Shown here piece after piece: positions 26,584-32,025 of a DNA stretch of 32,025 nt; positions within the stretch are counted from its first letter, which is position 1, and the number at the start of each line of letters is the position of its first letter. Source of the stretch: an uncultured Candidatus Saccharimonas sp. (GTDB lineage Bacteria > Patescibacteriota > Saccharimonadia > Saccharimonadales > OMJO01); assembly GCA_943353165.1 (NCBI GenBank), contig CALRAM010000003.1, positions 1 to 32,025 of the forward strand. Reading direction: 5' to 3'. Made by a program: the position numbers and the translations under genes. A model generated the notes under the pieces. It saw nothing but the letters and a program-made list of their open reading frames with translations. It had not been told where the DNA came from and ran no database searches.

Positions 26584-27507
26584 TTATATTTCAGAAAAAC
26601 TAATTAGCAACTGACATAACGCTTCATCGCTGTTCATTGTCGTTGTTTTTAGTCTTGTATCTAGCTCGGCGGTTGTCTTTATGATGTTTCGCAGCTGGGA
26701 AAGTGTCAATCTCCGGGCAATGGCTTGGCTCTTTTGGACTACAAATGGATTTATTTTGGCTTCTACGGCGATATCGTTAGGAGTTTTGTCGGTGGCAGTT
26801 TTTACCAAAGCCACGACATGAAGCTGCCACGCTATCATGCCCATAATCATCAGAGGCTCTACTTTTTGCGCGCGTTGTTCTTCGTAAATTTCTAGAGCCT
26901 TTTTTGTGTTTCCACCAAAAGCAGCATCCAACAAATTAAAAACCGTGCTTTGTGGCAAATGACTTGTCAGTAATTCTATACTGCTACGCGTGACATCTTG
27001 GTTATACAAAATCAATTTTTCCAATTCATTTTGCAACAGCATTTGGTTGGATCCGACTCTTTCTATTAGATACCTTGCATCAGAAAGAGACAAATTAGCT
27101 TTTTTGTCCTTAGCCAAACCTACTAGCCACGACGGCAACTGCATATCATTCAAATCATCACACATAACTAGTTCTGTATGCTTTTTTAGCTGCTTAAAAT
27201 AGCCCAGCCGTTTATCTATCTTTGGCTCCAAAATAATCACTTCGCTGGTGTCGGCAACTCGTTCCAACCATTTGTCAAAATTTTCTACAAATTGTTTGTT
27301 CGCAGAAGGGCTACGGAGAATTACCAACTTTTTTTCTGATAAAAATGGGTGGCTCTCCGCAGATCCCTGCAACTGCTCGTAGCTGGCTTCTTCGCCGTCC
27401 ACCTTTTCTAGCGAGAATTCGCCATACGAATCAACAAAATCCATAGTGCGTTTTTCTAGCTCGCTTGCCAATAAATACCTGTTATTTCCTGCCAGTGTTG
27501 TTATCAT
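26584..27507 (-). CDS. holA: DNA polymerase III delta subunit
   Basis: MITTLAGNNRYLLASELEKR, LERVGSNQMLLQNELEKLILY; start refined to 27507, ATGA overlap with mutM stop. Confidence 0.9.
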   Translation of the reverse strand: MITTLAGNNRYLLASELEKRTMDFVDSYGEFSLEKVDGEEASYEQLQGSAESHPFLSEKKLVILRSPSANKQFVENFDKWLERVADTSEVIILEPKIDKRLGYFKQLKKHTELVMCDDLNDMQLPSWLVGLAKDKKANLSLSDARYLIERVGSNQMLLQNELEKLILYNQDVTRSSIELLTSHLPQSTVFNLLDAAFGGNTKKALEIYEEQRAQKVEPLMIMGMIAWQLHVVALVKTATDKTPNDIAVEAKINPFVVQKSQAIARRLTLSQLRNIIKTTAELDTRLKTTTMNSDEALCQLLISFSEI

Positions 27508-28379
27508 TTTACAAGCCTCTGACAGTTTGGGCACAAATGCGTGCCCCTGCCTGCAACTCTTGTTTTTTGGATGGTAGTCTGGCAACGCGGACAAGCTAAG
27601 CCTTCGCGCCTAAAAACTCTGGCAAAATCCATATAACTACCTCGTTTTCCATCGATATTTACATAATTTTTATTCGTAGAACCGCCTTTTTCTATGGCCA
27701 GGTTCAAAACATAACGAAGTTGCGTAAATAAATTATTCATTTTGGGTTTGGAAAGGTTTCTGACCAGAGTACTGGGATTTATCTTTGCTCCCCACAAACT
27801 CTCGTCAGCATAAATGTTGCCCACACCTGCTACAACCGTCTGATCCAACAGAACGGACTTTATGTTGCTATTTTTTCTGCGTTCCAACCTGCTAGCAAAA
27901 ATACTACTCGTAAAATTGTTGGGCAATGGTTCTGGTCCAAGTTTTTTGAAAAAATCTAGTTTTGGGACTTCTGTTGTTGGCAATAGCCTAATCCAGCCAA
28001 ACTTTCGCTGGTCATTGAAATAAAGCGTGCTGTTATCGGAAAATTTTATAACAACCCTGGTAGATTTGTCTGGTAGATCGCCTACCAGAGATCCATTAGG
28101 ATGCCCTGCCCCAAAATTATCGTTAGGGCTGCGAAACACCAGTTGACCTGTCATCTTTAAATGTATGACTAGTGTATATCCTGTGTCGAGATCTATGGAT
28201 AAAACCTTTGCCCGTCTAGAAACATTGGTGACCACAGAGCCAATCAAGAAACCCTCTACATCCAAAGGCGAATTGGGAAAGCCTTTTGGCCAATCAAAAG
28301 AAACGCTAGCGACTTTCTTTTTCACTATGCGCGTGACTAGTCCTCGACGGACTGTTTCTACCTCTGGTAACTCTGGCAC
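27504..28379 (-). CDS. mutM: Formamidopyrimidine-DNA glycosylase
   Basis: GTG start; (M)PELPEVETVRRGL, VVAGVGNIYADESLW, zinc finger CPRC...CPNC. Confidence 0.96.
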   Translation of the reverse strand: MPELPEVETVRRGLVTRIVKKKVASVSFDWPKGFPNSPLDVEGFLIGSVVTNVSRRAKVLSIDLDTGYTLVIHLKMTGQLVFRSPNDNFGAGHPNGSLVGDLPDKSTRVVIKFSDNSTLYFNDQRKFGWIRLLPTTEVPKLDFFKKLGPEPLPNNFTSSIFASRLERRKNSNIKSVLLDQTVVAGVGNIYADESLWGAKINPSTLVRNLSKPKMNNLFTQLRYVLNLAIEKGGSTNKNYVNIDGKRGSYMDFARVFRREGLACPRCQTTIQKTRVAGRGTHLCPNCQRLVK

Positions 28380-30249: not shown

Positions 30250-32025
30250 CTACAGGTCACCCCAATTTCTGCCCTTGGAAACATCCACCGATAACTTTAC
30301 TGGAAGTTTATGAATATTTTCCATGGTATTTTTTAGCAGACGTTCTATATTATCAGTTTGGTTTTCGGGACACTCTACTATCAAACTGTCGTGTATCTGG
30401 AGCAATAGTTTGCTGTCGCCGCCTTTTAGTTTATTTTGAACTTGTATCATAGCCATTTTCATCAAATCCGCCTCTGTACCTTGAACTGGCATATTTATGG
30501 CTGCCCTCTCGGCTGCTGAGCGAACGATAAAATTGGGCGAATGTATATCTGGAGTAGGCCGTCGGCGACCAAATAATGTTTCTACATAACCGTCGTCTCG
30601 GGCTTTTACCTTTAGGCCATTCATGTACTCGAGTATTGGTTTTCTGAGTTCAAAATATTTGTCTATAAAAGTTTTGGCGGCCGCAATTGTCATGCCCGTA
30701 GCAACACTCAATCCATGCGGACTCATGCCGTAAAGGACTCCAAAGTTTATGATTTTTGCGTCACGTCGCATCTGTTTGGTTACCTCGTCAGGGTCGCGCC
30801 CATATACTTGGGCGGCCGTCATAGTATGGACATCTGCCCCACCATTGAACATATCCATCAAATCTTTGTCGTCTGCCAAATAGGCAGCTAGACGCAGTTC
30901 AAATTGGCTATAATCTGCACTGACCAGCATCATTCCTGGAGCCGCTACAAAGGCTGTTCTTATCTGTTTCCCTAGTTCCGTTCGGACAGGTATGTTTTGT
31001 AGGTTTGGATCTGTGCTACTCAGCCTGCCGGTCTGGGCAATAGTCAGGTTAAATGTAGTATGAACCCGACCGTTATCGTCGGTCATATTCGGCAAAGTGT
31101 CTATATAAGTGTTTTTTAATTTTGTGTATTCTCTATACTGCGAAACCAAGTCTATAATCGGATGCGTTCCTCTGAGTTTGTCTAGTTCGCTGGCAGCCGT
31201 AGAATAGCCTGTTTTGCCTTTTTTTATGGCTTTGGTGTCCAAGTTTAGTTTGTTGAACAATATGTCCGCCAACTGAGCAGGACTAGAGATGTTAAATTCT
31301 TGATCCGCATGGCCATAAATCTGTTGAACAATATCACTTATTTTGTCAGTCAACTGTTCCCCCATAATCTCTAGATAGCCACTGTCCAGCCGAATCCCAT
31401 GATATTCCATAGACGCCAGAACAGCTATAACGGGCCATTCTATCTCTGTTGCTAGCTTGGCTACCTTTGGCATAGCCTTCAAAGCTTCCTTTTGTTGAAT
31501 ATACAAAAGTCTGATTATAGAAATTACTGTATTAGCACGGTCCACTAATTCTAGGTCCGTCAAATCGTCCAAACTAGAGCCGTCATAGCCCAGTCCCGTT
31601 GTAGCCAAATCAGTCAATGATTGATCGCGAATCATAGAGTTCAACAAAAACGCTCCTACCAATACATCATGTTCAACATTTTCTAGCTCCAAGCCAAGAT
31701 TGTAGCCAGCCTTTATAGTGCTTTTTACGTCGTAACCAATGAGTTTTTTTTGTTGTAGCTGCTTTTGAAGAACTTGTCGAACAATATCTGGTGACATTTT
31801 TGGTAAATTGAGCACATATGTGTGATTTTCATCAGTACTGAGAAGCAAATATTTGGGTTCGGTACTATTCTTGCCTGCGCATCTGCTGTGTACAATAACA
31901 CTATCCGACCCTGACAAATCCAGCTTTTTTAGCTGGTCGTCGTCGCCTATGACTATAGCTAGGCCCGCATTATCATGATCAACCGCATAGCTTTCTTCGT
32001 GTTGCCTACCAGGCAGTGGACTATG
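30250..32025 (-). CDS. polA: DNA polymerase I, C-terminal part (degenerate 3'-5' exonuclease plus polymerase domain), truncated by window end
   Basis: SADYSQFELRLAAYLADD, RRDAKIINFGVLYGMSPHGLS, QIHDSLIVECPE, GRNWGDL; frame stays open to 32025 (HSPLPGRQHEESYAVDHDNAGLAIVIGDDDQLKKLDL upstream of the listed start). Confidence 0.96.
   Translation of the reverse strand, partial: HSPLPGRQHEESYAVDHDNAGLAIVIGDDDQLKKLDLSGSDSVIVHSRCAGKNSTEPKYLLLSTDENHTYVLNLPKMSPDIVRQVLQKQLQQKKLIGYDVKSTIKAGYNLGLELENVEHDVLVGAFLLNSMIRDQSLTDLATTGLGYDGSSLDDLTDLELVDRANTVISIIRLLYIQQKEALKAMPKVAKLATEIEWPVIAVLASMEYHGIRLDSGYLEIMGEQLTDKISDIVQQIYGHADQEFNISSPAQLADILFNKLNLDTKAIKKGKTGYSTAASELDKLRGTHPIIDLVSQYREYTKLKNTYIDTLPNMTDDNGRVHTTFNLTIAQTGRLSSTDPNLQNIPVRTELGKQIRTAFVAAPGMMLVSADYSQFELRLAAYLADDKDLMDMFNGGADVHTMTAAQVYGRDPDEVTKQMRRDAKIINFGVLYGMSPHGLSVATGMTIAAAKTFIDKYFELRKPILEYMNGLKVKARDDGYVETLFGRRRPTPDIHSPNFIVRSAAERAAINMPVQGTEADLMKMAMIQVQNKLKGGDSKLLLQIHDSLIVECPENQTDNIERLLKNTMENIHKLPVKLSVDVSKGRNWGDL

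Follow-up and report, generated by a model that had tools for sequence, protein, structure and literature searches.

A clade-fixed DNA polymerase I with a vestigial exonuclease domain, phenylalanine 709 and serine 883 in Saccharibacteria-type bacteria

Background

Substitutions of isoleucine 709 in Escherichia coli DNA polymerase I (Pol I) yield an efficient mutator, as recounted in PMC7708058 after original work by Shinkai and Loeb (2001), and an engineered Pol I associated with EvolvR combines D424A, I709N and A759R (PMC12009436). The Pol I gene (polA) at the end of a 32,025-nucleotide stretch of DNA from an uncultured Candidatus Saccharimonas sp. (the 'window') raises the question of whether a comparable enzyme exists in nature. 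An earlier note on this sequence had proposed that the 3'-5' exonuclease motifs of the encoded protein are dead, that all three positions altered in the engineered enzyme, together with position 883, carry natural changes, and that the polymerase may thus be of lower fidelity or otherwise specialised. A literature search found no paper joining Saccharibacteria, DNA polymerase I and proofreading.

The gene and its product

The window corresponds to positions 1-32025 of contig C3 in a 639-kb, five-contig genome. The polA reading frame (30250..32025, minus strand) runs off its end; the gene extends to C3:32916 in the assembly and encodes a protein of 888 amino acids, of which residues 298-888 lie within the window. 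A search of the genome with the family-A polymerase profile (PF00476) returned this protein as its only match. The chain carries a 5' nuclease domain (matched by PF02739 and PF01367), an exonuclease fold and a family-A polymerase domain, and scores well above the cut-offs of the NCBIfam equivalog models PRK05755 and TIGR00593. The polymerase domain (residues about 481-888; 30253..31476, minus strand) matches PF00476 at E=1e-141, and its assignment is further supported by Foldseek and by an AlphaFold2 model of PolA with a mean pLDDT of 93, for which the best solved structures are the Pol I enzymes of Taq, M. smegmatis and Bst. It is the best conserved part of the protein, with 83% identity to the nearest relative as against 54% for the exonuclease region. 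PolA is orthologous to E. coli Pol I, and its two-metal polymerase site is intact, with D705 and D882 (E. coli numbering, as for all positions below unless a window residue is named) both kept.

The neighbourhood of polA holds fpg, a uracil-DNA glycosylase gene, ssb and holA. At window positions 26584-28379, on the same strand and downstream of polA, fpg (formamidopyrimidine-DNA glycosylase, with a GTG start) overlaps or abuts a holA-like gene for DNA polymerase III delta.

Possession of a family-A polymerase is not universal in the phylum: about a quarter of the sampled genomes (30/117), many of them near-complete, have none, and the same is true of a few genomes within the class, such as G142, a member of family f39. 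One relative harbors a second, divergent family-A polymerase (L138, G059:C106:26360-27556), possibly phage-derived, whose motif A reads DLSNIELR and whose motif C reads HDALY.

A vestigial exonuclease domain

The region between the nuclease and polymerase domains (residues about 314-480; 31477..31977, minus strand) retains none of the DEDD acids. When aligned to E. coli Pol I, the Exo I site (31882..31890, minus strand) reads H-S-R, its H343 and R345 standing where E. coli has D355 and E357; the Exo II site (31717..31719, minus strand) has T400 in place of D424, as the earlier note had it; and at the Exo III site (31525..31539, minus strand) R460 and V464 replace Y497 and D501. The earlier reading of this last motif as ELVDRAN was about right, and its reading of the Exo I site as VIG(D) was taken from a different stretch; since the true site reads H and R, the conclusion that the exonuclease is dead survives this error of register. 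The substitutions are therefore D355H, E357R, D424T and D501V, together with Y497R, and the alignment that had been proposed as a check places no catalytic aspartate or glutamate in the domain.

Misalignment was considered as a source of this result and rejected: three sister sequences with a live exonuclease (L082, L084 and L090) align through the whole domain, and display DTET, D424 and YA[AS]ED motifs at the points where the clade described below has none. The active-exonuclease profile PF01612 found no match in this PolA, although it matched E. coli PolA at 2e-43, and the only match over the region was a weak one (2e-7) to the general RNaseH-like profile PF22619. Judged by its DEDD acids, the protein would thus fall outside the definition of a proofreading Pol I. 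Loss of this kind is common: roughly one in two Pol I orthologues is exo-dead (PMC12926913). The change at D424, previously counted as a mutator hit, is part of this general decay of the domain.

The polymerase active site

The three polymerase substitutions noted earlier (I709F, A759I and E883S) are all real. Motif A reads DYSQFELR (30892..30915, minus strand), in which F672, encoded at 30901-30903, occupies position 709; motif B reads RRDAKIINFG (30739..30768, minus strand), in which I722, encoded at 30751-30753, occupies position 759; and motif C reads QIHDS (30385..30399, minus strand), in which D843 corresponds to D882 and S844, encoded at 30385-30387, replaces the third carboxylate, E883, of the usual HDE. 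The residues D705, E710, R754, K758, F762, Y766 and D882 are kept in this protein, and D705, R754, K758, F762, Y766 and D882 are conserved throughout the clade.

These substitutions differ in what they might imply. At position 709 the residue is the very phenylalanine that PMC7708058 reports as a mutator in exo-minus E. coli Pol I: there, I709F in the Klenow fragment leaves synthesis unimpaired and, without the exonuclease, favours T:T mispairs. Homologous enzymes agree, as an exo-minus L903F form of the tobacco organelle homologue is 140-fold more error-prone and L979F converts pol zeta into a mutator (PMC7708058), and Klenow I709F has additionally been reported to make better use of rNTPs (PMC4854868). 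Position 759, by contrast, was rejected as a mutator marker: it varies freely (A, T, V, I, E, S, M or R across Pol I; V, A, T, I or E in relatives), isoleucine there is rare within the window's own order, and the engineered change is to arginine (PMC12009436). Position 883 lies outside the engineered mutator set altogether. The suggestion that the engineered mutator positions are specifically affected is accordingly not supported, and the broader reading of lowered fidelity is carried by the absent proofreading residues and by F709.

The glutamate at 883 is not an essential feature of family-A polymerases, as phage enzymes exist without it. The polymerase of phage Tt72 has a natural serine there, whose replacement by alanine leaves 76% activity as compared to 4% for either aspartate mutant (PMC9324360). 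Because that enzyme has serine at this position, and because catalysis rests on the two retained aspartates, E883S appears tolerable in the window enzyme.

Distribution and origin of the changes

The alignment covered PolA sequences of some 140 loci in the phylum, chosen by kinship. Within this sample the window's order and its sister family f39 form a clade of 64 sequences (one gene, L099 and L142, being entered twice), in which position 709 is F in 60, Q in two, and I and V in one each, and position 883 is S in 63 and A in one; none of the DEDD acids is left in 58 sequences, a single one remains in six, and a working site is found in none. Lineage fixation thus holds for F709 and S883, across about 37 families of the order, and fails for the variable position 759. 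Records named Candidatus Saccharibacteria (L149-L152, found by homology) all display HDS and F709, so the clade is read as Saccharibacteria.

Outside the clade the picture is different. The class has 21 further members in the sample: every one has E at 883, 20 have I and one (L090) has F at 709, and 20 keep all four exonuclease acids, the sequence of the remaining one (L104) being masked or missing there. Across the rest of the phylum E883 is retained with a single exception (Asp), F709 occurs in 3/55 sequences, and no exonuclease acid is left in 13/49, so that loss of the exonuclease does not by itself bring S883.

Wider counts at 709 and 883 rest on one scan of a genome collection (80 loci). 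Homologues from other bacterial phyla (73, picked by the patterns DYSQ[FI]ELR or [DNE]PNLQNIP and ordered by how closely they resemble the window enzyme, a selection that should favour F709 and S883 enzymes and would not hide them) have E at 883 in 73/73 and I (65) or V (8) at 709, never F; the exonuclease is dead in 54 of them. Among 80 viral homologues S883 occurs in ten, with I, A or L at 709, and F709 in none. Within this sample, serine 883 in cellular Pol I therefore appears confined to the clade, with precedents in phage.

Trees were built on the polymerase and 5' nuclease domains with columns 709, 759 and 883 removed, and with 913 also removed in a second tree. The order and f39 formed one clade (SH-aLRT 100 in a quick tree, 100/100 in a careful one), and topologies holding f39 apart from the order were rejected (p-AU 3.0e-6 and 3.6e-6); an independent gain of the package by f39 is disfavoured by both results. 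By parsimony, exonuclease loss and S883 would have arisen once on the stem of the clade, together with F709, and a few later members then changed 709 again. On the alignment and trees, the changes are old and fixed in the lineage, and do not represent a mutator allele of this genome.

An obligate coupling of 709 and 883 was ruled out in both directions: S883 occurs without F709 in clade members L012 (I709), L003 and L016 (Q709) and L050 (V709), and outside the clade L090, L077 and L153 combine F709 with E883 and a live exonuclease. The first of these last three, which belongs to the same class, may show a first step.

The clade is marked by nine diagnostic sites, only three in the polymerase domain (709, 883 and 913, the last being K874 of the window enzyme, 30295..30297, minus strand, where proline is usual) and six in the 5' nuclease. 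The latter changes (T68N, F69I, L88F, G137S, D157N and T158I; polA at window 30250-32025, L031:2251-4917) include G137S, which adjoins the DxD metal ligand region.

Repair and replication genes

MutS was not found in this genome and is absent in 30/31 genomes tested, in which controls were detected; its absence from Saccharibacteria has been published previously (PMC8406219). The genome encodes two RNase_T proteins, one an oligoribonuclease and the other exonuclease I, and for that reason no epsilon-type (DnaQ) proofreader was found. The small RNase_T protein encoded about 9 kb from polA had been a candidate trans-acting proofreader and was discarded once recognised as the oligoribonuclease. 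In the f39 genomes G175, G178 and G142, unlike in the order, no RNase_T family exonuclease was found, nor were Orn or ExoI homologues at the threshold used.

DnaE and a Y-family polymerase are each present in 20/20 genomes tested. The N-terminal PHP motifs of DnaE (HLHNHTQYSLLDG and DHGTLSG) look intact, so that chromosome replication may be proofread by PHP, as described for mycobacteria (PMC5636811).

This genome lacks rnhB, the gene for RNase HII, and its rplS abuts yraN (L314, about 11060, G000:C1); in a sister genome (G001) and in family f39 rnhB sits between these two genes. Its loss is sporadic in the order (present in 54/61 genomes, absent in 7/61), and is of interest because I709F has been reported to raise rNTP use.

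Interpretation

The explanation that we favour, with somewhat better than even confidence, is that PolA is a normal Pol I of repair and Okazaki-fragment processing in a clade-fixed, non-proofreading and probably less selective variant. It would carry out ordinary Okazaki-fragment maturation and excision-repair gap filling, and would be unable to proofread; Phe709, beside the incoming nucleotide, would make the choice of base, and probably that of sugar, less strict, in the way that I709F does in Klenow, and Ser883 would represent the tolerated loss of a third, non-essential carboxylate. Chromosome replication would still be protected by DnaE, which has a PHP domain of its own, and errors of PolA would thereby be confined to short Pol I patches, in cells without MutS mismatch repair. 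Lower fidelity is plausible because the exo-minus I709F Klenow enzyme acts as a mutator while synthesising normally and using rNTPs better, and the combination by which a low-fidelity Pol I would be recognised in sequence, an exo-minus domain with a mutator residue at 709, is present here as F709 with a dead exonuclease. The enzyme is thus probably an active, non-proofreading polymerase of lowered selectivity, and the label of natural mutator is offered as a testable hypothesis.

Three observations weigh against this explanation. What is known of the effect of I709F comes solely from an E. coli background with E883, and background residues or S883 itself may counteract that effect; position 709 is I, V or Q in some clade members that show no other obvious change; and the enzymes of L090, L077 and L153, noted above, indicate that F709 need not mean low fidelity.

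A second explanation, which we regard as possible though short of probable, is an ordinary Pol I that cannot proofread but whose intrinsic fidelity is normal, in the manner of Bst or Taq; F709 and S883 would then be neutral, or would compensate for each other, and would have been fixed by drift in a reduced genome. Exonuclease loss without F709 or S883 is common, both among the other bacterial homologues and in the published survey (PMC12926913); natural enzymes have I, V, M, L, A, Q or F at 709; S883 of phage accompanies I, A or L there; and the PolA model closely matches Bst and Taq. Set against this are the mutator phenotype of I709F in exo-minus Pol I, described in PMC7708058, and the near-fixation of F709 and S883 over so many families, which suggests more than drift.

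It is also conceivable, and in our view unlikely, that PolA is a specialised translesion or damage-tolerant enzyme, its open site without proofreading having been favoured by selection for filling gaps across from lesions. Inactivated Pol I exonucleases have been linked to translesion synthesis (PMC12926913), as proposed for the exo-dead enzymes of H. pylori and B. subtilis, and a small genome without MutS, with polA near fpg and a uracil-DNA glycosylase gene, would fit such a role; the Y-family polymerases indicate, however, that a separate bypass polymerase exists. That loss of the third carboxylate killed synthesis and left only the 5' nuclease in use is scarcely credible, since, for all that E883 is invariant elsewhere among bacterial Pol I enzymes and PolA is wholly missing in some relatives, the catalytic residues are kept throughout the clade in what is the best conserved domain, and the phage precedent demonstrates that serine is compatible with activity (PMC9324360).

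A bolder extension of the favoured reading, of a less selective repair polymerase, is put forward tentatively, as possible though short of probable: that the Saccharibacteria-type branch has long run on a low-fidelity, ribonucleotide-tolerant Pol I without the third carboxylate and with no mismatch repair behind it, such that the laboratory exo-minus I709F mutator is its natural state.

Comparison with characterized enzymes

The window enzyme shares domain order, fold and loss of the 3'-5' exonuclease with Bst and Taq Pol I (the PolA1 group of PMC12926913), its nearest solved structures, which keep I709 and E883 where it has F709 and S883. With exo-minus I709F Klenow it shares the lack of proofreading and the identical single-site mutator change. 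It differs from the low-fidelity E. coli enzyme in being natural and clade-fixed rather than engineered and in lacking arginine at 759, and its E883S has no counterpart in engineered low-fidelity enzymes. That serine is shared with the Thermus phage Tt72 polymerase (PMC9324360), which is otherwise unlike it: a protein of 703 amino acids with exonuclease and polymerase domains only, strong live proofreading and no 5' nuclease. Actinobacterial PolA2/APEX (PMC12926913), a family-A enzyme of proposed low fidelity, likewise has an inactivated 3'-5' exonuclease, but lacks a 5' nuclease and carries a QxxLF clamp motif in its vestigial domain; the window enzyme has a 5' nuclease, and a search of its vestigial domain found no conserved copy of that motif.

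Significance

A third carboxylate that is invariant in the other sampled bacterial Pol I enzymes has been dropped by one clade, along with proofreading and in company with a substitution that turns E. coli Pol I into a mutator. Live-exonuclease sisters with I709 and E883, the F709-only enzyme of L090 and the derived clade form a ready comparison for the roles of these residues, and the clade may offer natural exo-minus polymerases whose selectivity is altered. As judged from sequence, the repair polymerase of these cells may be naturally sloppier, and the same comparison could show whether small-genome, host-dependent bacteria tolerate sloppy repair synthesis.
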